A DNA stretch of 53,124 nt from Candidatus Zixiibacteriota bacterium (GTDB taxonomy: Bacteria; Zixibacteria; MSB-5A5; GN15; JACZUZ01): the NCBI GenBank assembly GCA_024280775.1, contig JAJRPM010000014.1, positions 142,477-195,600 on the forward strand, in the 5' to 3' direction. Below the pieces are notes generated by a model, which worked only from the letters and a program-made list of their open reading frames with translations, made no database searches and was not told the origin of the DNA. Positions within the stretch are counted from its first letter, which is position 1; every line of letters starts with the position of its first letter. Positions 14,730 to 46,820 of the stretch are shown one piece after another. Position numbers and translations under genes: made by a program.

Positions 14730-17700
14730 TTATTTAAGCAATACCATCTTTCTAGTTGAGATGTTGGCTCCCGCTGTGAGTTTGTAGAAATACAAACCTG
14801 AACCGACGTCGGACGCCTCCCATGTGATTGTTACAGCGCCTTCCGCGGCGCCGACAAACTCTTTGACTTTTTGACCTGCGACATTGTAGATGGTCAGGTT
14901 GTAGGACATTCTTGATGGTAGAACAAAGTCTATCTTAGTTGAGGGGTTGAACGGATTAGGATAGTTCTGTTTCAAGGTAAACGACGTTGGCAATGTCGCA
15001 GATGTTGTGGCATCAACTACCGTTCCTTCCACATCGGAGGCTGACGCTCTCAAGAGTTCTCCGTCACTGGTAACAATTTCGCCAATCTGAATGCGCTCGG
15101 TGGAAGTTGAGAGGCTGTTCAAATTGGGGCTCACCAACGCATAGGTGTTTCCGTCACGTTGCCCGACTGACAGATTCATTTGAGCTTGAAGCAGAGTTAC
15201 ATCTACGTAACCTTCAAAGACAAACAGCGCGGCGCCGAGTTCAATTTCAGAGCTAACCACTCCCTGTGTAACAGACAACTCTATTGACTTGCTGTCATGT
15301 GAGAGCTTTGGCAGCGGCAGGGCATCGCCGACTATGATACGAACCAGGTAGACCAAATCAGCAACTGTAAGTGGAATGCCATCGCCATTGATTTCACTAG
15401 CGGCCACTGAGCCGTCTTCGTGTGGCGCGAATGCGCTAAGACCGGAGACGAAGTACTCAGTGAGCATCACGGCATCGGCGATTTCATTGTCAACTCCATT
15501 GAGATTGATGTCACCTCGGGCATCGATTGAATCGGCGCAGATTATGTCCACTCCGCCGTTTTGGAATGTCAGACAGGCAATTGGTGTCGGTTTACCAGCG
15601 CCGCCACCTACCAGACACTCAGGTTGTGTTCCCAGGTAAGTTGGGAATCCAGCTGATCCGTCGTTGATAGGAGTTGGATTCGCGTAGTCCAACACAGTTT
15701 CGCTGACAAAGAGTGTGTCACCGGTTTGATCGGCTAGTGTATTATCGCCGCAATCAACCCAAAAGAATCGCACTGGCGCAAATTGACATTCGAGTGTGCG
15801 ATCATTGCTGACATTGAAACAGATTTCCGCTAGCTCAACAGGGTCGGTAGTTCCCGGCCCGTAACACAGCGGATGGTTCAAACCATTGTTTACCTCAGCG
15901 ATTGCGACGACACGCAACAATCCCGAGGGACAACCGCCGTTGCAATTACCATTGGCTCCGAAGCGATAGGTGAAATACTCCCAACCACAACCCTCGATGA
16001 ACGAGCCAGGATTGGCTCCCAAAGCCACTAAGGCTGAATTATCGTATGCAACTAAGAGATCATACCCACCGAAAGGTCGCACACTGCCTTCAGCGGTGAT
16101 AGAAACACAAACTCTCTCACCCTGAATTACGCCATGCACTTTCTCAAGTGTCAGAGTAGGGCAACCGTTGCAAACCAGCGGGTCTTCAGCGATAACATCC
16201 ACAATGGTTGTGCAGGTAGTGACGGCCCCACAAGAGTCAGTTGCGCTCACTACTATAGTGTGAGTTCCGGTGGCCCCAGGAGTGAAGCAAACCGAGGAGC
16301 CACTCAATGTCCCGCCGGTTATTGTTACGTTTTGCATGTTGCCGTCGGGATCTGTGATGTCAAATCCCGGGACACAAATAGTTGATGCCGGATCACACAC
16401 TGTCACGCTGAAAGTAGCAGGACAGGTCACTGAAGGCGCTCCGTTGGCGGAAACTTCATGAGTGACAACAGCGGTGTCACTGCGACCGAAATCATCGGTT
16501 ACTATCACTGTTGCTGTCTGATTTGAAGAGCCGACCGGAGTGTTGAAACATAGTGAATCACCATTGAGTGTAGCCGATCCGCTTACAGTGAAAGTGAGAG
16601 GCGCTTTGCCTCCGGTTACTGTTGGCAATGGAAGACAAACAGTTCCTGCGGCGCAGATAAATCCGCTGTTGATTGTGATAACACCTGAGTTTACAAATAC
16701 AGGCGGCGGAACGATTGAGACAGTGACAAATGTGCCACAAGAATCAGTAAGTCCACAGGAATCGGTTACTATACTGTAGAGCGTGTAAACACCGGAGGTA
16801 TCCGGGGTGAAGCAGATATCCGAACCGGACACTGTGCCAAATCCATAAGTGACAGAGCTGATATTACCGTTGGGGTCCGAAGTTGTAAAAGGACCGATGC
16901 AGATTTCCTGTGGTGTGGAGATTATCAGCCCGCTGTCATTGGGACAGCTCGCGGTCGGTGCGGCATTGACCTGGACAGTCACACAGTAATTCACAACATC
17001 AGTAAGTCCGCAACTATCGGAGATAGTCAGCTGATCACAGTAGACACCAGCTGAGTCACTGACTACAAAGCAAACAGTCGAGTCGCTCATATTCACCCAA
17101 CCAAGGGAACTGACGCCGCTTAATCCATTACCTGGATCTATGACTGAGAACTTGACACAAACTGTGTCACCCAGGCCACATATTCTGGACAAAGTATTGC
17201 TGGCAATTGTTACCTGCGGCGCGGTGTTGACTGTCGCATTGATAGTCAGGTTAGCGGTGTCTGCATTGCCACAACTATCGGTAACAATAATCACACGGGT
17301 AACAGAACTATTCATATCCAGGAAAACGCAAACCGAATCAGTAACCGCAGAGCCATCGGCAGTGTAACTGAACGGCGCGGAGCCGCCGGTTACTGTCGGT
17401 AACGGGAAGCAGAGCGTTGCTGTGTCACAGAGCGCAACATTGAATACCTGGTCTGCAATAACTGGCGCCGGAGTCATATTCACGGTAACTGAAGTAGTGC
17501 AAGAGGTATTGGCGTTGCATGAATCTATCGCTGTCCAGATGATGGTGTAAACACCGGCGGTGTCAGGAGTGAAACATATATCGGAACCTGTCAGGGTACC
17601 GAATCCGGACGATGAACTCATGAGATTTGCATCGATGTCACTGGCAGTGAATGGCCCGACACAGATTTGCTCTGGAGCGCAGAGAGTTACGGTTGTGTCG

Positions 17701-20700
17701 CCCGGGCAGGAAACTTGCGGCGCAGTATTTAATGATACTGTCACATTGGTTGTGCAAGTTGCGCTGGCTCCGCAGGAATCAGTGATGGTGCAAATAAGAC
17801 TGTAGACTCCGGAGGTGTCAGGTGTGAAGCAAATATCTGTTCCTGACGACGTACCGAAATTGTAGGATACGCTAGCGACGTTGCCGTCAATATCACCTGA
17901 GGCAAATGGCCCGACACAAATTTCTTGCGATGCGCACAGGAAGAATGATTGATCCGGGGCGCAGGAGATAGTCGGGGCGCTGTTTATTGATACTACTATG
18001 CAGTAGCTAATAGTATCAGGAAGGCCACAGCTATCAGAGATGATGAGTTGATCGCAGTAGGTTCCTGATGTATCAGCGACAAAGCGCACAGTTGAGTCTA
18101 CTAGAGAAACTACGCCAAGTGAACTTACGCCGCTTAGACCGTTGCCAGGGTCAACAACCGTGAAAGGCACAAATACACTGTCACCGGCGGCGCAAGAGAA
18201 TACAGGAGTTGTGTCAACTCCGGTGATTTGCGGGGCGCTGTTGACAGTTGCGTTGATTGTCAGAGTTGAGGTGTCAGCTTTGCCGCATGAGTCGGTAACT
18301 ATTATTTGGCGCGTAATTGTGCTGTTCGTACTTAGGAATACACAGATTGAATCGGTGACTGGCGAGCCATCGGCAGTGAAACTAAGCGCTCCGGCGCCTC
18401 CGGTGACAGTCGGCAAAGCGAAACATACAGTCGCAGTGTCACATAGCGAGACATTGAATGATTGATCGGCGATTACCGGAGGGGCGGTAAAGGTGACGGT
18501 CACTAGTGTGGTGCAGGAAACTGAGGCGCCGCAGGAATCGGTGAGAGTGCAGATTATCGAATACACTCCGGCGGTGTCCGGTGTGAAACAAACATCACTG
18601 CCGACCAGAACACCATTCTTGTATGAGGAGCTCATCAGGTTGCCATCGGGGTCAGATGCGGTAAACGGACCGATGCAGATTTGCTCCGGGGCGCAAAGTG
18701 TGAATGCGGCATCGGATGGGCAACTTGCAACCGGCGCCCCATTGACAGTGATGGTTACGGTTGTCACGCTGGTATCAGCGGCGCCACAGGAATCGGTGGC
18801 GATAATTGTAAGAGTATTAGTTCCGGCCACTGGCGTGAAACAGACAGTATCTCCTGAGAGAGTTCCACCTGTCACTACTAGTGATTCTAGGTTACTGTCA
18901 CCGTCAGTGGCGCTGAATCCCGGCAAACATATTGACGTCAAGTCACAAACGAAAATTGATGAATTCGCCGGACTGGAGGCTGTTGGCGCTGAGTTCAGTG
19001 AAATAGTAACAGTTGTCACGCTGGTATCTGCAGCGCCACATGAGTCTGTTCCAATTATCGTCAGTACATTAGCTCCAACTACCGGAGTGAAGCAGACAGT
19101 ATCACCGGAAAGAGTTCCGCCAACTACTGTAACTGAGGACAGATTGCCATCACTATCGGCTATTGCGAATCCAGGTAAGCAGACAGAACTAAGATCACAA
19201 ACAAACAGTGAAGAACTTGCCGGACTGGTTGCTACTGGCGCGTTGTTGAATGCAACTGTGATGGTGGTCGTACTTGTATCGGCGACACCGCAGGAATCTG
19301 TCACAATCAATGTGATTACATTGGCTCCCATAACCGGTGTGAAACAAACAGTTCCACCTGATAGAGTTCCGCCAGTCGCAGTCAGCGAGGCGAGATTACC
19401 ATCAGCGTCGGTAGCTCCGAAACCACTCAAACAAATAGCGCTCATATCGCAAACAAACAATGTGTCATCTGCAGGAGAGGCGGCAACCGGGGCGCTGTTG
19501 AGTGTTACTGTCACGGTGGTTACACTGGTATCGGCTACGCCGCAAGAGTCAGTTGCAATGAGCGTGAGAACATTTGCGCCAGCTACTGGTGCAAAACAAA
19601 CAGTGTCACCGGAGAGAGTCCCACCTGTAATAACCACAGATGCAAGATTGCTGTCGCCGTCAGTGGCGCTGAATCCAGGCAAACAAATTGGAGCCAGATC
19701 GCAAACGAACATGGCCGAATTTGCCGGACTAGACGCTACCGGAGAGGCATTGAGCGTTACAGTAACAGTAGTCACGCTGGTGTCGGCAACACCGCAGGAA
19801 TCTGTTGCGATTATAGTTAGTGTATTGGCTCCAGCGACAGGCGTGAAACAGACGGTATCCCCTGAGAGGGTTCCACCGGTAACAACTACTGATGCGAGAT
19901 TGCTATCGCCATCTGCGGCGCTGAATCCCGGCAAACAAATCGGGGTCAAATCACAAACAAAGATTGATGAATTTGCCGGACTGGAGGCTGTTGGCGCTGA
20001 GTTCAGTGAAATAGTTATTGTCGTGACACTGGTGTCAGCGGCGCCACATGAGTCTGTTCCGATTATGGTCAGTACATTAGCTCCAACCACCGGAGTGAAG
20101 CAGACAGTATCACCAGATAGTGTGCCACTAGAAACTGAAGTTGAAAAAAGGTTTCCGTCAGAATCAACAACTGAGAATCCAGGCAAACAAATCTGACTAA
20201 GATCACAAACAAACAGTGACAAGTTCGCAGGACTGGTTGCAACTGGCGCGTTGTTGAATGCAACTGTAATTGTAGTCGTACTGGTATCAGCTACACCGCA
20301 GGAATCTGTTGCGATTAACATGATTACATTGGCTCCCATAACCGGTGTGAAACAAACTGTTCCACCTGATAGGGTTCCGCCAGTTGCAGTCAGCGAAGCG
20401 AGGTTGCCGTCTAGGTCGGTAGCTCCAAAACCACTCAAACATATAGCGCTCATATCGCAAACAAACAATGTATCATCTGCAGGAGAGGCGGCAACCGGGG
20501 CGCTGTTGAGCGTGACAGTAACGGTTGTAACATTTGTATCAGCAACCCCGCAGGAATCAGTTGCGACAATAGTCAGTGTGTTGGCTCCGGCGACAGGAGT
20601 GAAGCAAACTGTGTCACCTGAGAGAGTTCCTCCTGCTAGAACTACCGAAGCAAGGTTGCCATCACCATCAACTGCGCTGAAACCAGGCAGACAGATTTGA

Positions 20701-22265
20701 GACAGATCACAAACGAACATCGCAGAGTTCGCGGGACTAGTAGCCAGCGGGGCATTGTTTAGAGTTACAGTGACAGCTGTGACACTAGTGTCGGCAAGTC
20801 CGCAAGAGTCTGTTCCGATAATGGTTAACACATTGGCGCCAACTACAGGAGTAAAACAAAGCGTATTGCCAGATAGTGTGCCATTCGAAACGGTGGTTGA
20901 AAGCAAGTTGCCATCAGAATCAACAGCGGAGAAGCCAGGCAAACAAATCTGACTGAGGTCACATACAAAGAGTGACGAATTAGCGGGACTAGAGGCCACC
21001 GGAGCGGTATTGAGAGTAACAGTCACGGTTGTGACACTCGTATCAGCGACTCCACAGGAATCAACTCCGATGATTGTCAGGACGTTGGGGCCAACAACCG
21101 GAGTAAAGCAAACTGTGTCGCCGGAGAGAGAGCCACCGGTGACAGTTACCGAAGATAGATTGCTGTCACCATCGGCGACTGAAAAACCAGGTAGGCAAAT
21201 ATCACTGAGGTCGCATACAAAGAGCGCTGAATTTGCCGGACTGGCGGCTACTGGCGCGCTGTTTACTGACACTGTTACAGTGGTCACACAGGTATCGGCT
21301 ATACCACATGAATCAGTGGCGATTAGAGTCAGGACATTTGCGCCGGCAACTGGAGTAAAGCAAACTGTATCACCGGAGAGAGTCCCTCCACTAACTGTTA
21401 AGCTCACGAGATTCCCATCAGAATCAGTCGCCGAGAACCCTGGCAAACAGATGGCGCTAAGGTCACATACTTCCAGTGCAACATCGCCAGGGCAGACAGC
21501 AACGGGAGGCGAATTGATGACGATAGTAATGCAAACCGAGTCTATGTCATCGTCATCCTCAGCTACACCGCGAAGATTGTCATCATCATCCAATTCGAAT
21601 TCAAAGCAATAGACACCGGAAGTATCCGCAGTGAAGCAAAATGTGGTGTCAAATGCGCTGTCATCTTCCGATTGCAGAGAAAAAGTAGAACCGGTAATAT
21701 CAGAGAATGATATCCTGTCGCCATCATCATCTTCACCATGCACATCAAAGCAAACTTCTCCCGGGGCGCAGAGGAATATTGTAGTGTCAAAACTGGCCGT
21801 ATCATCGTCATCGCTTTTAGAGAAAAACGACAGTAATGGCGTAGCGTTCGGAACAAGTGTGAATGTCGTTGTCGCTGAATTACCGGAGACCAACCCAACA
21901 GCGGTTAGCTTCAGTGTCTGTTGAGTGTTGACCATCGGAGCTGTCCAGGTGGAGAGGAACCCCCCCTGCGCCCCGGAAGAAACGACCCATGACTGGCCCG
22001 GAGCTCCACTTAACGGGGAGCCATCAAGGTTAGTAACCTGCAGGGTAACACTTTCTTGCAGTCCAAAGGTAGCGCCATCTATAGAGACCGCTAGATTTGC
22101 CGAATAGACCGGCGCGTCAGTAATGACAGCCGCGGCCTGAAGGCTGGAACCCAGTAGCAAAAAGACGCCGAAAACGGCGCAGGTGGTGTACAGGGACTTC
22201 TTGATATTACGCAAGACTACAGCGGGCGTAGCGCTACTTTTTAGTGAGCTATGGTGCGCGTTCAT
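14730..22265 (-). CDS. Giant secreted Ig-like repeat protein with dockerin-like and FlgD/T9SS-type C-terminus
   Basis: 2511 residues, probably a surface adhesin or stalk protein. A signal peptide (about residues 25-46) precedes a beta domain and an Asp-rich segment (SDDDD, GEDDDGD, ELDDDDN, about 148-250). From residue 251 to about 2025 there are some 21 Ig-like repeats of 82-89 residues. Repeats 1-11 are each exactly 84 residues and near identical, with FVCDLS, CLPGF, DTVCFTP and DSCG positions, giving four Cys per repeat (possible disulfides). After the array come a cohesin-like domain, a dockerin-like region (GDINLNGVDNEIADAV; EINGDGIPLTVADLVYLVR) and a FlgD-like/T9SS type A tail (YPNPFNPSTKIDFVLP to the end, residues about 2434-2511). 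Such tails direct secretion by the type IX system or a related route. It has its own terminator. Confidence 0.9.
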   Translation of the reverse strand: MNAHHSSLKSSATPAVVLRNIKKSLYTTCAVFGVFLLLGSSLQAAAVITDAPVYSANLAVSIDGATFGLQESVTLQVTNLDGSPLSGAPGQSWVVSSGAQGGFLSTWTAPMVNTQQTLKLTAVGLVSGNSATTTFTLVPNATPLLSFFSKSDDDDTASFDTTIFLCAPGEVCFDVHGEDDDGDRISFSDITGSTFSLQSEDDSAFDTTFCFTADTSGVYCFEFELDDDDNLRGVAEDDDDIDSVCITIVINSPPVAVCPGDVALEVCDLSAICLPGFSATDSDGNLVSLTVSGGTLSGDTVCFTPVAGANVLTLIATDSCGIADTCVTTVTVSVNSAPVAASPANSALFVCDLSDICLPGFSVADGDSNLSSVTVTGGSLSGDTVCFTPVVGPNVLTIIGVDSCGVADTSVTTVTVTLNTAPVASSPANSSLFVCDLSQICLPGFSAVDSDGNLLSTTVSNGTLSGNTLCFTPVVGANVLTIIGTDSCGLADTSVTAVTVTLNNAPLATSPANSAMFVCDLSQICLPGFSAVDGDGNLASVVLAGGTLSGDTVCFTPVAGANTLTIVATDSCGVADTNVTTVTVTLNSAPVAASPADDTLFVCDMSAICLSGFGATDLDGNLASLTATGGTLSGGTVCFTPVMGANVIMLIATDSCGVADTSTTTITVAFNNAPVATSPANLSLFVCDLSQICLPGFSVVDSDGNLFSTSVSSGTLSGDTVCFTPVVGANVLTIIGTDSCGAADTSVTTITISLNSAPTASSPANSSIFVCDLTPICLPGFSAADGDSNLASVVVTGGTLSGDTVCFTPVAGANTLTIIATDSCGVADTSVTTVTVTLNASPVASSPANSAMFVCDLAPICLPGFSATDGDSNLASVVITGGTLSGDTVCFAPVAGANVLTLIATDSCGVADTSVTTVTVTLNSAPVAASPADDTLFVCDMSAICLSGFGATDADGNLASLTATGGTLSGGTVCFTPVMGANVITLIVTDSCGVADTSTTTITVAFNNAPVATSPASSSLFVCDLSSVCLPGFAIADSDGNLSSVTVVGGTLSGDTVCFTPVVGANVLTIIGTDSCGAADTSVTTVTISLNSAPTASSPANSSIFVCDLTSICLPGFSATDGDSNLESLVVTGGTLSGDTVCFTPVAGTNTLTIIATDSCGAADTSVTTVTITVNGAPVASCPSDAAFTLCAPEQICIGPFTASDPDGNLMSSSYKNGVLVGSDVCFTPDTAGVYSIICTLTDSCGASVSCTTLVTVTFTAPPVIADQSFNVSLCDTATVCFALPTVTGGAGALSFTADGSPVTDSICVFLSTNSTITRQIIVTDSCGKADTSTLTINATVNSAPQITGVDTTPVFSCAAGDSVFVPFTVVDPGNGLSGVSSLGVVSLVDSTVRFVADTSGTYCDQLIISDSCGLPDTISYCIVVSINSAPTISCAPDQSFFLCASQEICVGPFASGDIDGNVASVSYNFGTSSGTDICFTPDTSGVYSLICTITDSCGASATCTTNVTVSLNTAPQVSCPGDTTVTLCAPEQICVGPFTASDIDANLMSSSSGFGTLTGSDICFTPDTAGVYTIIWTAIDSCNANTSCTTSVTVNMTPAPVIADQVFNVALCDTATLCFPLPTVTGGSAPFSYTADGSAVTDSVCVFLDMNSSVTRVIIVTDSCGNADTANLTINATVNTAPQVTIASNTLSRICGLGDTVCVKFSVIDPGNGLSGVSSLGWVNMSDSTVCFVVSDSAGVYCDQLTISDSCGLTDVVNYCVTVQVNAAPTASCPNDSGLIISTPQEICIGPFTTSDPNGNISSVTYGFGTVSGSDICFTPDTSGVYTLYSIVTDSCGLTDSCGTFVTVSIVPPPVFVNSGVITINSGFICAAGTVCLPLPTVTGGKAPLTFTVSGSATLNGDSLCFNTPVGSSNQTATVIVTDDFGRSDTAVVTHEVSANGAPSVTCPATFSVTVCDPASTICVPGFDITDPDGNMQNVTITGGTLSGSSVCFTPGATGTHTIVVSATDSCGAVTTCTTIVDVIAEDPLVCNGCPTLTLEKVHGVIQGERVCVSITAEGSVRPFGGYDLLVAYDNSALVALGANPGSFIEGCGWEYFTYRFGANGNCNGGCPSGLLRVVAIAEVNNGLNHPLCYGPGTTDPVELAEICFNVSNDRTLECQFAPVRFFWVDCGDNTLADQTGDTLFVSETVLDYANPTPINDGSAGFPTYLGTQPECLVGGGAGKPTPIACLTFQNGGVDIICADSIDARGDINLNGVDNEIADAVMLTEYFVSGLSAFAPHEDGSVAASEINGDGIPLTVADLVYLVRIIVGDALPLPKLSHDSKSIELSVTQGVVSSEIELGAALFVFEGYVDVTLLQAQMNLSVGQRDGNTYALVSPNLNSLSTSTERIQIGEIVTSDGELLRASASDVEGTVVDATTSATLPTSFTLKQNYPNPFNPSTKIDFVLPSRMSYNLTIYNVAGQKVKEFVGAAEGAVTITWEASDVGSGLYFYKLTAGANISTRKMVLLK
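16713..18743 (-). repeat. Second repeat block: a four-domain module duplicated once inside the giant gene
   Basis: Domains 12-15 (17730-18743) match domains 16-19 (16713-17729) one for one in order. The SCPxD...PEQIC type, the VIADQxFNVxLCDTATxCF type, the DPGNGLSGVSSLG type and the APTxSC type each recur four domains later. Unit length is 82-87 residues, and divergence is greater than in the first block. Confidence 0.8.
18744..21515 (-). repeat. Array of eleven 252-bp in-frame repeats inside the giant gene
   Basis: Eleven tandem copies of an 84-codon Ig-like unit with no length change (11 x 252 bases). A higher-order period of four units is visible: unit 5 matches 9, 6 matches 10 and 7 matches 11 almost residue for residue. 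For example, the stretch beginning CTGGAGGCTGTTGGCGCTGA at 18972 recurs at 19980, exactly 1008 bases on. Confidence 0.9.
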
Positions 22266-39678: not shown

Positions 39679-41055
39679 TCAATTGGGCTTCAACTTGATT
39701 CTGGCGGCAAATCCACCATCGAGACGGTCAAATGCCGGATAGGTCTTGATAAACCCACGTTCGCTTACTACCGATTCATCGAAAAACTGCGAAGCAGAGT
39801 CCAGTTGAAACTGCTTGTTGCGCAAGAGGAATTCCTCGACAATTTGGTCGTTTTCTTTGCGTAGAATAGTGCAGGTGGAATAGACAAGAATACCGCCGGG
39901 CTTAAGCAGCGCCGCGCCAGTCTCCAGTAGCTTACGCTGGATTCGGTTCATCTGGTTTATATCCTCCTGGGTCTTACTCCAGCGAAGGTCCGCATGTCTT
40001 CCCGCAGTGCCCCAACCTGAACAAGGCGGATCAACTATCACACGCTCAAAGAGCTCCTCAGATTTGAACTGCACAGCGTCACAGACAATCGGAGAGACAA
40101 TTTTAACCCCAAGCTTCTTGCAATTCTCGGTGAGTATTTCCAAACGTCTACGTGACTTATCAAGCGCCACGACTTTGCCCTTGCCACGCATACGCGAGGC
40201 GCAGTACATCGTTTTGCCTCCGGGGGCGGCTGTTAAGTCTAGTGTATTTACGCCGGGACGAGGGTTCAGCAAACGCACAGCCATTCCAGCTGACTGGTCC
40301 TGAATGTAGATCTTACCTTCATCAAGCAAAGAGCGCAATGGATCAATAGCGCTGGTATCGAGAGTGATAAATTCGTCCAGATACTTTCCGGGCTGGAAAC
40401 CAATCTTCGCCTCTTTCAGAGCCGCTTCAATTTCTTCATTCTTGGCCTTGAGCAAATTCACCCGCACAGTCAGACCAGATGGCAGATTCATTTGTTTGAG
40501 TAACTTGACCGCCTGCTCCTCGCCAAATTCTCGCAGGCAATAATTAACAAAATAGTCCGGGTAGGAATAATAATTCGCCAAATAGCGCACCGGGTCGTCA
40601 TTGGGGTTTGGGAATGCGGCTTTATGCGGCTCGCGCAAATATGAACGCAACACCGCATTCACCATTCGGGATTTAGCGTCACCAAAAAAATATCTGCCGA
40701 GTTTGACACATTCATCGACCGCCGCTGATTGCGGGACTTTGTCTGTGAATTGAAGCTGGAAGAATCCTAGCCGCAGGATATTTTGCAGTTTGACGTTGAG
40801 CTTTTCTGAAGGACGAGTCAAGAAGAATCGAATTTGATAATCGAGGCGTCGTCTCATTTTCACAATACCGTTAATCAGCAACATCAAGAAACGATTATCT
40901 CGCGGATCAAGCCCCACCATCTCTTTGGCGTTTTGAATCGCCACATCCAATGACTTACCTGTCTTATCATACTCCGAAAGGGCAATTATCACAGCGCCGC
41001 GCACCGGGTCATATGAGCTGGTAGTCTTTGCTGGTGTGATTTTGGTTTCGCTCAT
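39679..41055 (-). CDS. rsmB: 16S rRNA m5C967 methyltransferase RsmB/Sun
   Basis: 458 residues. An N-terminal NusB-like RNA-binding domain (about 15-150) precedes a NOL1/NOP2/Sun SAM-methyltransferase domain. The SAM pocket is DLTAAPGGKTMYCASRM, followed by VVALDKSRRRLEIL. The active-site cysteines lie in VIVDPPCSGWGTAGRH and VYSTCTI; the STC nucleophile and the PPC general Cys of RCMT enzymes are both present. The usual APC is DPPC here, a conservative change. Methylates C967 of 16S rRNA on free small subunits or nascent particles. Its start is 11 bases from the stop of the large DUF2344 gene on the same strand, and the PASTA gene follows. Confidence 0.95.
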   Translation of the reverse strand: MSETKITPAKTTSSYDPVRGAVIIALSEYDKTGKSLDVAIQNAKEMVGLDPRDNRFLMLLINGIVKMRRRLDYQIRFFLTRPSEKLNVKLQNILRLGFFQLQFTDKVPQSAAVDECVKLGRYFFGDAKSRMVNAVLRSYLREPHKAAFPNPNDDPVRYLANYYSYPDYFVNYCLREFGEEQAVKLLKQMNLPSGLTVRVNLLKAKNEEIEAALKEAKIGFQPGKYLDEFITLDTSAIDPLRSLLDEGKIYIQDQSAGMAVRLLNPRPGVNTLDLTAAPGGKTMYCASRMRGKGKVVALDKSRRRLEILTENCKKLGVKIVSPIVCDAVQFKSEELFERVIVDPPCSGWGTAGRHADLRWSKTQEDINQMNRIQRKLLETGAALLKPGGILVYSTCTILRKENDQIVEEFLLRNKQFQLDSASQFFDESVVSERGFIKTYPAFDRLDGGFAARIKLKPN

Positions 41056-41066
41056 TTTGATTCAAT

Positions 41067-43466
41067 CTAACTTGCGAGATTTGACTCTTGCATGCACTCG
41101 GTTGCCAAAGGTCTCAGGTTCTCAAAGCCGAATTGCAAACGATGAATCTTCGCTTTGGTAGAATCCTGCCTGTTGAGTATCCCGGCGGCATCCAGGAACT
41201 CCTCGGGGCGCACATAAAAGGTATCGGTTAACGCGAGAGTAAGTTTGAGTACCTGTAGTGAGCCGTCTTTGGAGTAGCTTGATGCGCAGTTGGCGAAAAA
41301 CTTATCGTAGTGGCAATCACCCTTATCCAACATTTTAGCCTCAAAGACACCGGGGCGCAGGTCAACTTCCCGCTCTCGTTTCTTATTTCGCCGCGTATAG
41401 AGCAGACGATTCTGCGCGAGCGCTGAGGCAAGCTTTTCGCCGGTGTTTGTCTCTGTGACTCCGATTAAATAAGTCGCATTGCAAATCGACTCCAGAATAG
41501 ATAGCTCTTTTGTCATAGCCTTCTCCGCTGAAACTATGCGATAGCCGGGCGGCAGGAGGGCGGCCAACTTTTGAATATCACCGGAGGATGGCATTGTCTC
41601 AAAGTGCGCATCAAACATCTCGCAATCGGAAGTGAATCCGACAGGCTTTGGCGCTCCGAATGAAATCTTCAAACGTGGACGTTGGCCTTGAGTGTATGTG
41701 AGAGGAAACCCACTGCGTAATAACGCCGATTCAATCGCGCGCAGATTGTCCAGATGCGAAAGAAAACGCGCCGGACCGGTCACAGCCCAGCTGAATCGCA
41801 GGCGAGTCTTGGTTGGCGCTGAGACAGTTGTGATAACTGTGCGCTTCTTTCGTCTTCCAAAGACGCTTCTATTGTCTGCGCCATTGCTTGTAACGACGTT
41901 GCATGTAACGACGTTGCTTGTAGCTCCATTGGGCGCAGCTAGCGAAGAAGAATCCCCGGCAGAGTCTGTCGAGCAAATTTCAAAAGATGTAACACCTGTG
42001 TTTTGACTTTCCAACTTACTTGCAAAAACCTCGGCATATTCATTCCAATAAGCGCTTGGGCCATCATCTTGCGAGCTATCAATAAATGATTGTAATTGGT
42101 CCACTGAGTGAAATGCGTTTCTTTGGATCAAAGCGCTAAATAATTTGCTTGCTGATTCTTCCAGCACGTAAGTCACACCTTTGATACGACCACCGCGTTT
42201 GATATTCTCGAATAACTCACGAATCTTTGCTTCTTCGCGAACTGGGGCAAACCGAGAGATATATCTCTCGAATTTGACACGTAAGCCACGTCGGGGATTC
42301 AATACTCGAGAACATTCACGCAAAGTTTCGCAACTCTCACGGGCCTCAATTGACTCGTCAATTGCATGGCCCAGTTCAATTCTTAGATGCAGTGATTGTA
42401 GCGGCTCTATTTGAAGTAATGACAGACAATTCACGAATTGTTCCCTGTCAAAACGCATCTGGCGCTCTGCCAGCGCTGATGGGGATAGTGACGGTGTAAA
42501 CAACTCTACTCGCACTCGTCGAAAACGACTCAAAGCGCCGGCTAGAAGTTGTGTCACTTGCCCTGGTGCGACATCACGTAACAGAATCGAATAACGTCTT
42601 GCCTCAATCTGATGCGCTAGTTTATCAATTGCCTCAGCCAGGTCAAACTTGCCAACTGCGTTAGCGCAATTCTCAATTCCTATCTCAGTTAATCCGGAAA
42701 GTTTGACACTCTTTACTAACTCTGAGCTGATATCATTTGATTCAGAAAATGAAGTGACACTAAAGCGCGCCTTTTGTTGCGCTACTTCTATTTGCGGCAC
42801 AATCGGGCGACTTGGAATCAGCGGTGAGAGAGAAACTGGCGAATTCGACGTATCAGATGCGCTTTGCTTCTTCAGTGACACAGTCGGAGAAGCTAGAAAA
42901 TCTGCAATCGGCAAAACAGAATCAAAAATCTCATTGGCAATCGCCGGAATCTCTGAATCTACCAGTGCAACCAAACGCGGAAAACTTGTTTCACTCTCGG
43001 CCTGGCTACGCTGCGCTTTTGAAAACGGGATTCTAGCCGCCTGCAAGACTTTAGCAAGGGCTGATAGCTCAGTCCAATCATTCAACGGCGCCAGCAGAAT
43101 ATCCGCTTGAACCAGAGGTGTAAAGTCAGGACCAGAAAACGGCGCAAGTTTCAGAGACTCAAGCGCGGCCAAAGCCTCAGGACCGAAAGGATAAGTAGAG
43201 CCGACACGAAAATCCCCGGAATCCAGTAACGCCAGACGTGTCGCCACAATTTGCGGTTCGTTAACTGAGCGCTCATAGCTTTTCAATCCGACTATGACCG
43301 CCAAAGGAAGATCAGCGTCACCTGCAGAAGCGTTATCAGACAGTGATTCGGATTTGGCCGGAGCTACCCATTCCAAGGAGGCATAACGTCCCGGCTTTAT
43401 CATTGACGGCAAAAACTCGTCTTCAATCGCCCGAGCGAACTCAGCTTTCTGGTCTACGGAAATCAT
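41067..43466 (-). CDS. Radical-SAM-like/DUF2344 fusion protein lacking the iron-sulfur cysteine motif
   Basis: 799 residues. The C-terminal part (about 552-745: RLRFSWAVTGPARFLSHLDNLRAIESALLRSG, SFGAPKPVGFTSDCEMFDA) is DUF2344, a domain normally fused to or paired with a B12-binding radical SAM protein. The first 480 residues follow the layout of that partner: KPGRYASLEW, then a Rossmann-like part (VIVGLKSYERSVNEP, QADILLAPLND), RPIVPQIEVAQQ, then a barrel ending in RIKGVTYVLEESA and SAYWNEYAEVF. The CxxxCxxC motif expected just after IEVAQQKARF is absent. A Thr/Ser/Asn-rich linker (about 497-535) has a short 15-base DNA repeat. So it is probably a catalytically dead or repurposed homologue. 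Upstream of rsmB, 11 bases apart. Confidence 0.75.
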   Translation of the reverse strand: MISVDQKAEFARAIEDEFLPSMIKPGRYASLEWVAPAKSESLSDNASAGDADLPLAVIVGLKSYERSVNEPQIVATRLALLDSGDFRVGSTYPFGPEALAALESLKLAPFSGPDFTPLVQADILLAPLNDWTELSALAKVLQAARIPFSKAQRSQAESETSFPRLVALVDSEIPAIANEIFDSVLPIADFLASPTVSLKKQSASDTSNSPVSLSPLIPSRPIVPQIEVAQQKARFSVTSFSESNDISSELVKSVKLSGLTEIGIENCANAVGKFDLAEAIDKLAHQIEARRYSILLRDVAPGQVTQLLAGALSRFRRVRVELFTPSLSPSALAERQMRFDREQFVNCLSLLQIEPLQSLHLRIELGHAIDESIEARESCETLRECSRVLNPRRGLRVKFERYISRFAPVREEAKIRELFENIKRGGRIKGVTYVLEESASKLFSALIQRNAFHSVDQLQSFIDSSQDDGPSAYWNEYAEVFASKLESQNTGVTSFEICSTDSAGDSSSLAAPNGATSNVVTCNVVTSNGADNRSVFGRRKKRTVITTVSAPTKTRLRFSWAVTGPARFLSHLDNLRAIESALLRSGFPLTYTQGQRPRLKISFGAPKPVGFTSDCEMFDAHFETMPSSGDIQKLAALLPPGYRIVSAEKAMTKELSILESICNATYLIGVTETNTGEKLASALAQNRLLYTRRNKKREREVDLRPGVFEAKMLDKGDCHYDKFFANCASSYSKDGSLQVLKLTLALTDTFYVRPEEFLDAAGILNRQDSTKAKIHRLQFGFENLRPLATECMQESNLAS

Positions 43467-44527: not shown

Positions 44528-45355
44528 TTAGCTCTTGGCAGAACCGCTTGTGAAACGCTTTTCGGCCTTGCGCAGACGCTCGGCATAGGGGGCCATGCGA
44601 AATCCCTCGATTTTCAAGAAGTAGATCAAAGAACCAGCCAGGTGCAAATACATCGGATCGGTTTTGGCTTCGGCATACTTAAGTATCTCATCGAGTTTGG
44701 TTAGCGCATGTTCACCGGTTTCGAATTCGCGGTAAAGCAAGTCCAACTCCGCCCAAACTTGTTCAGTGAACTTCTCGAACAGCCCGATGTCGGCATTCTC
44801 TCCCCTGCGACGCAGGACTACACGCCTGGGCGACACTTGCTCGACCGGCGCAGTCTTTGGGGTTTCCATTCTGCTGAGCTTAACGTCAGGCTTTACACTC
44901 TCTGAAACTATTTGTTCCTTGCCCTCGCTGATACTCGCAGCGCCGGAGCGCTCTTTCCAGGTAGCGAAGCGCTTGCGTAACTCGATAGCGCTATCGGTTT
45001 CGCTGGATGTAGCAACCTTAGTCTCGGAGCTTCTATCGGAACTACTTTGCAGTTCAAGTAACAATGATGAAATACGACGACGGTCCTGCTCGGACAGATT
45101 CGAGGATTCCGCCAGATCGCGATGACTGTTCATCCAGCGATCTATTTCAGCGCTATCGAAATTCCCCATCGCCGCTTCGCCTACAATGCGATCCAGCCAC
45201 TCAACTCCAGCGAGCGCCTCAATGCGAGTCGACTGCGAATCCGCATAGCGCTCCAAAAATGATTCTATCGCCACCCGACTCCCCTTGAGACGATTCAAGG
45301 TCTTGGCGGTATGGGCTTCCGGTGTTTGAGATACCTGTGTTTCATCAACTTTCAT
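44528..45355 (-). CDS. Cytoplasmic protein of unknown function (second gene of the DUF4388 operon)
   Basis: 275 residues. The N-terminal half is helical (LKGSRVAIESFLERYADSQ; IGEAAMGNF-like stretch VGEAAMGNFDSAEIDRWMNS). A low-complexity Ser/Thr/Glu/Lys linker (about 105-165) follows. The C-terminal part (GLFEKFTEQVWAELDLLYREFETG, LDEILKYAEAKTDPMYLHLAGSLIYFLKIEGFRM, YAERLRKAEKRF) looks like a second helical domain. Its start overlaps the DUF4388 gene stop by four bases (ATGA), so translation is coupled. I do not recognise the family. The C-terminal helical motif with repeated acidic/hydrophobic positions could be a docking module (inference). Confidence 0.7.
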   Translation of the reverse strand: MKVDETQVSQTPEAHTAKTLNRLKGSRVAIESFLERYADSQSTRIEALAGVEWLDRIVGEAAMGNFDSAEIDRWMNSHRDLAESSNLSEQDRRRISSLLLELQSSSDRSSETKVATSSETDSAIELRKRFATWKERSGAASISEGKEQIVSESVKPDVKLSRMETPKTAPVEQVSPRRVVLRRRGENADIGLFEKFTEQVWAELDLLYREFETGEHALTKLDEILKYAEAKTDPMYLHLAGSLIYFLKIEGFRMAPYAERLRKAEKRFTSGSAKS

Positions 45356-46485
45356 TCAGCGAACTCATTCCACATTTCCTGCTCATCAGATTGCTTCTTA
45401 GCTGGCGTTTTCTGTTCAGCTTTACTCTCGCCGCTAACACTCTCAGCGAGAATCTCAGTTAGCGGCTTATCACCAACCAAACGTGAGCTGGACTGTTTGC
45501 CAGTTGATACAGATGACGAGGGGGAGCCGCTTCCTTGCAAAAAATCTTCCATTAATCCGGCCAGACGAGTCATCATACTCTCCAACCTATCGGTCCCCCC
45601 CGTCAATGCTCCGGTATTCTCTTCGGTCGCAGTTCCGGTACTATCTGTCAATTCAGGTGTCAGACCGGCGGCGTTGTGTTTAAGCGTCGGGCAAATCAAT
45701 CCGGCCAGTTTCAACGCCGCAAGTTTCTTCAGTGTTTCAATCTCACTTAGATTGGAAATATCAATAATATCCCGGCTGTTACGTCGACCATCGATAAGAG
45801 CCAGCAAGTTCCATTCCTCAGGGCAAAGCGAAACATCGATATTATGCCCGTCGCCAACCTGAGAAATCGCCAGCGGGGTACTCATCGCCGGCAAAGTGTC
45901 ACGAAGATGATTCATTTCATCCAGACGTCTCAATCCTTCCAGGATTACATTCTCGGCGGATATCTCCACAGTAATCTCTTCCTGAGTCGGATATTGATCC
46001 TCATAGAATTTGAAAGAGCCGGTTTGCCATTTAATTAGCGAGTAGAGAAGCTCCTCAACTTGCGAGCGCACTACTTCCATGACATCCGCCCGGTCAATAT
46101 GTCCCATATCGATAAGAATCTGCCCGAGTCGTTCATTGGTTTCGGATTTTGACTGCTTGAGAACCGCTTGGTCGAGTTGCGCCTCGCTGATTTTGCCGCT
46201 GTCTTTGAGAAGTCTACCAATATGAAAAATCTGATGTGGTCCATAGCCATAGACAATGAGTCCATTATCGAAATAGACCATGACAATGTCATCCTCGCGC
46301 TGGATGCCAAGAGTGCCGCTCTTGCGCCCGGCGGCCAGTAGCTGAAAAATATCCGGCAATTTGAAATTCTCGATATTACCCTGCAAGTCCATAGCATTGG
46401 CTTTGGTATCTCCTGAGGATTGGGCAATAGGTTTGTCTTTGGGAGACGTGTATTTGTTCATCGACGGTTGCATGTTCTCGTGCAT
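45352..46485 (-). CDS. DUF4388/PATAN-domain protein
   Basis: About 378 residues. I start it at the ATG at 46485 (MHENMQPSMNKYTSPKDKPI), which has an AGGTGAG box just upstream; a frame 64 codons longer exists but its N-terminus looks unlike a protein. The recognisable part is the DUF4388 (PATAN) domain NIENFKLPDIFQLLAAGRKSGTLGIQ followed by FDNGLIVYGYGPH. A helical region follows (ISEAQLDQAVLKQSKSETNERLGQILI, ADVMEVVRSQVEELLYSLIKW, the type found in MshEN- and GSPII-like segments). DUF4388 proteins are known in Myxococcus-type motility and regulatory systems. Here it is the first gene of a coupled three-gene operon with two unknown proteins. Confidence 0.8.
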   Translation of the reverse strand: MHENMQPSMNKYTSPKDKPIAQSSGDTKANAMDLQGNIENFKLPDIFQLLAAGRKSGTLGIQREDDIVMVYFDNGLIVYGYGPHQIFHIGRLLKDSGKISEAQLDQAVLKQSKSETNERLGQILIDMGHIDRADVMEVVRSQVEELLYSLIKWQTGSFKFYEDQYPTQEEITVEISAENVILEGLRRLDEMNHLRDTLPAMSTPLAISQVGDGHNIDVSLCPEEWNLLALIDGRRNSRDIIDISNLSEIETLKKLAALKLAGLICPTLKHNAAGLTPELTDSTGTATEENTGALTGGTDRLESMMTRLAGLMEDFLQGSGSPSSSVSTGKQSSSRLVGDKPLTEILAESVSGESKAEQKTPAKKQSDEQEMWNEFAE

Positions 46486-46820
46486 TTTCTCACCTGTAGC
46501 TAAATTGTCTCCGGCTCGGCCAAATAGCCGATTTCGCTGGAGCGTACATATTGCAAGAGTAACAATTTTCGCTAGCGCTTGAAAAGTATAAAATCCGCTT
46601 TGTGACCACAAAAATGCCAGGCGCATCGTTGGCGCCATGCTCTTGGCCTCACAAATCGTATGAATACTGCCAACCACGCTGAATTTGCGCCCTCACCTGC
46701 CGATAATCTTGTTGTGGCGTGGGAATTGATAAAACTCGTATCTTTCAACCATGCTGAAAACTGGTTCCTACTATAATTCAGTTCCTTAAGAAAGTGCGCT
46801 AACTAGCTGACCAATAAATC
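46486..46820. other. 335-bp divergent intergenic region
   Basis: Contains the promoters of the minus-strand DUF4388 operon and the plus-strand CapK-like gene. A TATAAT hexamer (46774-46779) stands 41 bases before the plus-strand ATG, without a good -35 at the right spacing. The extended frame of the minus-strand gene reaches across much of the region but I consider it noncoding. No hairpin stands out. Confidence 0.5.

Follow-up and report, generated by a model that had tools for sequence, protein, structure and literature searches.

A gene of 799 codons in a Candidatus Zixiibacteriota genome joins a DUF2344 domain to an N-terminal half that resembles a radical SAM enzyme from which the iron-sulphur motif is missing. 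It raises the question of whether such a half is dead or repurposed, and of what the DUF2344 domain does beside it. The window, that is, the whole stretch of DNA analysed, is 53,124 nucleotides long. The gene opens with ATG, runs without interruption and ends 11 bp before rsmB; its features are as follows.

41067..43466, minus strand: whole gene, 799 aa, a cluster-less radical-SAM-like half plus DUF2344 (frame, domain matches; full-length frames open in G001 and G002)
42822..43466, minus strand: remnant of a Radical_SAM_N2 (PF19864) Rossmann-like domain, residues 1–215, beginning FLPxxIKPGRYxxxE (alignment and hhalign collinearity with canonical PF19864; Rossmann-like elements in the model)
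42132..42821, minus strand: remnant of a radical SAM (beta/alpha)6 core, residues 216–445 (hhalign to the canonical core; predicted beta/alpha units; TIM-barrel and radical SAM Foldseek matches)
42732..42785, minus strand: site expected for the canonical EIMRGCPxGCRFCQA cluster loop, residues 228–245, shortened and without cysteine (alignments, cysteine positions)
41820..42002, minus strand: low-complexity linker, residues 489–549, predicted to be disordered (pLDDT and dN, below)
41133..41804, minus strand: DUF2344/TIGR03936 domain, residues 555–778, with a TruA/Pus1-like fold by model (Pfam and NCBIfam matches, model, Foldseek)
39679..41055, minus strand: rsmB, 16S rRNA (cytosine-967-C5) methyltransferase, directly downstream (NF011494, 362 bits; synteny in relatives)

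Two other genes of the window were also noted. A 2511-aa secreted-looking protein (14730–22265, minus strand) has many similar repeats and a C-terminal sorting-like end PNPFNPSTKIDF, and a DUF4388 protein (45352–46677, minus strand) carries an MshE-like cyclic di-GMP-binding motif; relatives in f1 and f3 also have proteins similar to the latter in an upstream position.

Ancestry of the N-terminal half

Within the family to which the genome belongs (f1), a sister species and a second genus (55% and 30% identity, respectively) have the full-length frame open; in a third genus (G003) the gene is in two pieces on different contigs. The sequence-only reading had called the C-terminal DUF2344 domain clear, and PF10105 indeed matched residues 555–717 (1.8e-34; 119.6 bits against a cut-off of 23.8) and TIGR03936 residues 555–778 (126.3 bits; curated cut-off 71.9). 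No Pfam or NCBIfam model matched residues 1–550 even at E=1. The protein had no match to TIGR03960 (curated cut-off 462 bits), to the B12-binding model PF02310 or, directly in the Pfam search, to PF04055 (Radical SAM), and a PDB sequence search with the protein alone returned only noise.

Profile–profile comparison revealed a strong similarity to the radical SAM partner. When the N-half profile of the own family was aligned by hhalign with 14 canonical N halves, 443 columns were collinear, the radical SAM core included (99.4% probability, E=4.8e-21). Alignment also showed that KPGRY..E, PIVPxIE and the Gly of the LGLP strand are common to the protein and its relatives, while the EIMRGCPxGCRFCQ loop of the relatives is absent from it. 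The cysteines of the N half (267, 347, 379, 385, 498 and 522) form neither CxxxCxxC nor CxxC. The proposals that residues 1–490 follow the order of a radical SAM partner, and that the CxxxCxxC expected after PIVPQIEV is missing, are thus borne out. The further description of that partner as B12-binding held in part: the radical SAM homology stands, but the N-terminal section corresponds to Radical_SAM_N2 (PF19864) and PF02310 is unmatched. By Pfam, a canonical member consists of Radical_SAM_N2, Radical_SAM and DUF2344.

The model of the whole protein (pTM 0.77) has a Rossmann-like part, beta/alpha units, a disordered linker (pLDDT <50) and a confident C-terminal domain. Six alternating beta/alpha units are predicted from E233 to E396, and most of the core of this predicted (beta/alpha)6 barrel lies at a pLDDT of about 70–90. 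In Foldseek searches the best matches of the whole model were TruA, PUS3 and PUS1 (3.7e-7; 1vs3 probability 1.00), with MgmA, OxsB and AprD4 lower in the ranking. The N half alone, the model of which is weaker (pLDDT 64.5), matched TIM barrels, MgmA, lipoyl synthase, Elp3 and AprD4. The predicted fold contains a beta/alpha barrel resembling TIM barrels and cobalamin radical SAM enzymes; homologues were present in the alignments of both models, which ties this fold evidence to the sequence result rather than making it independent.

The genome has a single TIGR03936 gene, and a profile search of it found no TIGR03960 gene over the cut-off and no second or cluster-bearing copy. A weak TIGR03960 match was considered as such a copy and rejected, as it is MiaB/MtaB-like (named from its sequence only) with a CxxxCxxC of its own. 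Profile similarity, predicted barrel and absent cluster together support the view of a dead or repurposed radical SAM scaffold. As far as sequence can tell, the N half is descended from a radical SAM enzyme and has lost the cluster loop.

Cluster loss across the phylum

TIGR03936 was present above its cut-off in 94 of 97 genomes of the host phylum, and a homologue of the 799-aa protein was found in 39 of 40 relatives. Most of the genomes are metagenome assemblies; the best two of the own family are 97% and 96% complete. Beyond this family, nearly all homologues are ~850-aa fusions with VEIMRGCPxGCRFCQA. At the level of the order, TIGR03936 was over the cut-off in 74 of 80 genomes, and among the 68 with a readable cluster region the cluster was present in 58 and absent in 10. 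It is absent from all four genomes of f1 (G000–G003); the other genomes of the order without it are G015, G018 (SxxxCxxC), G059 and the three of genus g12 (G012, G024, G058), which have kept only a DUF2344 protein of ~250 aa. In the rest of the class, the sole copy is cluster-less in f5 (G080–G082), f7 (G085, G086) and f8 (G087, which is RBG-1). Seven genomes of f17/f18 have a readable cluster-less copy together with a cluster-bearing copy of about 900–957 aa. The cluster-less forms of f4 belong to single lineages.

Genomes with only cluster-less copies had no TIGR03960 partner elsewhere, and a split partner gene was sought in cluster-less and DUF2344-only genomes and not found. In G087 and G082, the TIGR03960 match breaks off and resumes, skipping model positions 250–286 or 257–286, where the cluster loop lies.

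Several side observations were made in these genomes. The DUF2344 domain of the second, cluster-bearing fusion of f17/f18 (L225–L261, G112–G120; L262–L266, L269) VEIARGCTEGCRFCQ groups near Armatimonadota. A cluster-bearing fusion in G038 has an in-frame TAA shortly past the cluster loop (L053:5996–5998), which would be a draft error or the sign of a gene heading for loss. As a partial check on whether the cluster loss was caused by a loss of cobalamin use, B12-binding domains were counted; they averaged 1.6 in cluster-less genomes as compared with 3.5 (Mann-Whitney p=0.0025; 28 genomes, uncorrected for kinship), with at least one in every cluster-less genome; the lower number may reflect a reduced cobalamin or radical repertoire.

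The distribution of cluster-less copies over the DUF2344 tree required seven changes, and well-supported branches force four of these. Because this tree was built from 221 columns and contains some long branches, the figure of seven is approximate; four is a safer minimum. A single cluster-less clade, or one ancient dead paralogue accounting for all cases, was rejected (AU p=2.4e-5), as was a single group of the cluster-less copies outside f4 (p=8e-4). G003 (86 residues cut, long branch) and a partial G107 copy (cluster region off the contig) were dropped from the tree tests. RsmB trees likewise separated three groups within the order: f1, the pair G015 and G018, and G059, which joined g12 or fell close to it. 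Judged from these trees, loss of the cluster occurred several separate times in the phylum.

Fate of the two halves

The two halves have been under different selection. In canonical pairs the mean identity is 51% for the N half and 43% for DUF2344, and 98.6% of the 1891 pairs show the stronger conservation in the N half. In the own family the order is inverted in six of six pairs. Own-family proteins retain 22–28 of 100 near-invariant residues in the N half as compared with 18–21 of 24 in DUF2344, and the core residues PEAG, GLPTE, SPF and HTPxQW are mostly gone too. Between G000 and G001, the N half has a dN of 0.39 and DUF2344 one of 0.26, with synonymous sites saturated; the linker (489–549) is the fastest-evolving stretch (dN 0.84). 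None of 2000 neutral simulations left the N half open. The dN values against saturated dS, the simulations and the residue retention indicate that constraint on the N half has loosened without vanishing, while DUF2344 remains constrained.

We conclude that the protein is probably a radical-SAM pseudoenzyme in which DUF2344 keeps a cluster-independent, RNA-binding-like role. The ancestor would have been a fused TIGR03960–TIGR03936 protein whose radical SAM and DUF2344 halves worked together. The [4Fe-4S] loop appears to have been lost in the ancestor of the own family, and because of this loss radical SAM cleavage would no longer be possible. The N half would have drifted afterwards, retained as a full-length scaffold, and DUF2344 would still be under selection for a function with no need of radical chemistry, as suggested by its conservation and by the retention of DUF2344 alone in g12.

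The persistence of a full-length N half in most cluster-less lineages counts against this conclusion, since it may denote a function of its own. The N half could have been repurposed as a cluster-free barrel with a new binding or catalytic role, DUF2344 serving as its aiming domain. Full-length N halves with their segments in order persist in f1, f5, f7, f8, f17/f18, G015, G018 and G059, the own-family N halves have a pattern of their own at 26–51% identity, and dN is well under saturated dS. However, g12 discarded the N half entirely while keeping DUF2344, and the sets of residues retained differ between cluster-less lineages, so that there is no sign of a new active site common to them; we regard repurposing as unlikely.

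Less probable still is plain decay of the gene, in which the radical SAM half would have become useless and the rest would be about to follow, with g12 as the end point. Pfam Radical_SAM scores are graded by lineage, from 75 bits in canonical proteins through 39, 36, 36, 29 and 18 to none in f1, and the in-frame TAA of one cluster-bearing relative would fit such a course. Decay is nevertheless difficult to reconcile with open frames and a constrained DUF2344 across the whole family, reached by several independent routes, with neutral simulations in which no frame stays open and with the near universality of TIGR03936 in the phylum.

Non-canonical radical SAM enzymes exist, ThiC and Dph2 being examples. 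That the protein is another unusual enzyme of this kind, binding a cluster through some of its six remaining N-half cysteines on the precedent of these two (for ThiC, PMC4389238), is very improbable in an N half that has neither CxxC nor CxxxCxxC and has mostly lost the core residues named above.

DUF2344 and known systems

As the cluster was lost several separate times in the phylum, DUF2344 probably has a function of its own. TIGR03936 gave weak matches, mostly at positions 55–120, to ~250-aa proteins in many genomes; two of these were inspected, and both are TruA. PF10105 also matches TruA weakly, and Pfam clan analysis counts DUF2344 as belonging to the pseudouridine synthase domain (PMC7955657). 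Direct hhalign comparison of DUF2344 with a thin, two-row TruA alignment gave E=0.022 and a probability of 2%; in this weak register the catalytic Asp of TruA (GRTDxGVH) falls on Pro608. A PDB search with the DUF2344 profile returned noise only.

The earlier remark that the gene lies directly before rsmB extends to the relatives, as rsmB adjoins it in most lineages checked. In Firmicutes and Latescibacterota the TIGR03936 gene is adjoined by rng, and in G117 (f18) the cluster-bearing copy adjoins MtaB and MiaB. Fold likeness and neighbourhood favour an RNA-binding role for DUF2344, and the proximity of rsmB suggests one connected with ribosomal RNA, tRNA or the ribosome. On the TruA/Pus1/Pus3-like model and the rsmB, rng and MtaB/MiaB neighbours, the function would most likely be RNA binding, by an rRNA or tRNA processing or assembly factor; having once brought the radical SAM half to its substrate, DUF2344 would now work on its own. 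Against this, the cluster-less copy of f17/f18 (G112, G114, G117) adjoins hutI, not rsmB, which makes the neighbourhood circumstantial. The literature searched, to which subscription literature was external, yielded no characterised DUF2344/TIGR03936 member and no RNA-binding experiment.

We tentatively suggest, more broadly, that DUF2344 could be a ribosome or tRNA factor that binds RNA, has a pseudouridine-synthase fold lacking the catalytic residue and works independently of radical chemistry, and that the radical SAM half could be a dispensable add-on switched off several times in one phylum, leaving a recurrent class of pseudoenzymes. Zixibacteria constitute a natural experiment in which the chemistry was removed in several separate lineages and DUF2344 kept. 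This split separates the two functions and predicts a cluster-independent role for DUF2344, which the stand-alone g12 protein (~250 aa) makes testable. TIGR03960/TIGR03936 is widespread and appears uncharacterised; recurrent radical-SAM pseudoenzymes would be unusual, and no report of them was found in the same, non-subscription literature.

Outside the phylum, TIGR03936 was found in 59 of 60 genomes of a class of Firmicutes, with an intact TIGR03960 in 59 of 59. In Chloroflexota (L168, L185, L188, L195, L197), DUF2344 is unaccompanied, the flanking sequence retrieved being free of radical SAM genes, but the same genomes have a TIGR03960 match elsewhere in five of five cases, over the cut-off in four. 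The idea that DUF2344 generally lacks a partner outside the phylum was rejected, since TIGR03960 was matched in eight of eight locus genomes (seven over the cut-off) as well as in all 59 Firmicutes genomes with TIGR03936.

The protein resembles several known systems in part. The cobalamin-dependent radical SAM enzymes MgmA, OxsB and AprD4 have a similar Rossmann-like plus barrel architecture by Foldseek, and MgmA is also matched by the family sequence profile; these enzymes bind a cluster, whereas the 799-aa protein has neither the cluster motif nor a B12-binding Pfam match. The TruA/Pus1/Pus3 pseudouridine synthases are the best structural match of the predicted model, but the catalytic Asp of TruA falls on Pro608 in the weak alignment and there is no sign of synthase activity. 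With the stand-alone DUF2344/TIGR03936 proteins of Firmicutes, encoded next to TIGR03960 and rng, the C-terminal half compares as a full member; their radical SAM partner is intact throughout the sampled class, while the partner half here is cluster-less. Finally, the fusions of TIGR03960 (rSAM_fuse_unch) with TIGR03936 share with the 799-aa protein the two-half layout, the order of segments and, in this phylum, adjacency to rsmB, and differ from it in that it lacks a CxxxCxxC loop, does not reach the TIGR03960 cut-off and has a drifting N half.
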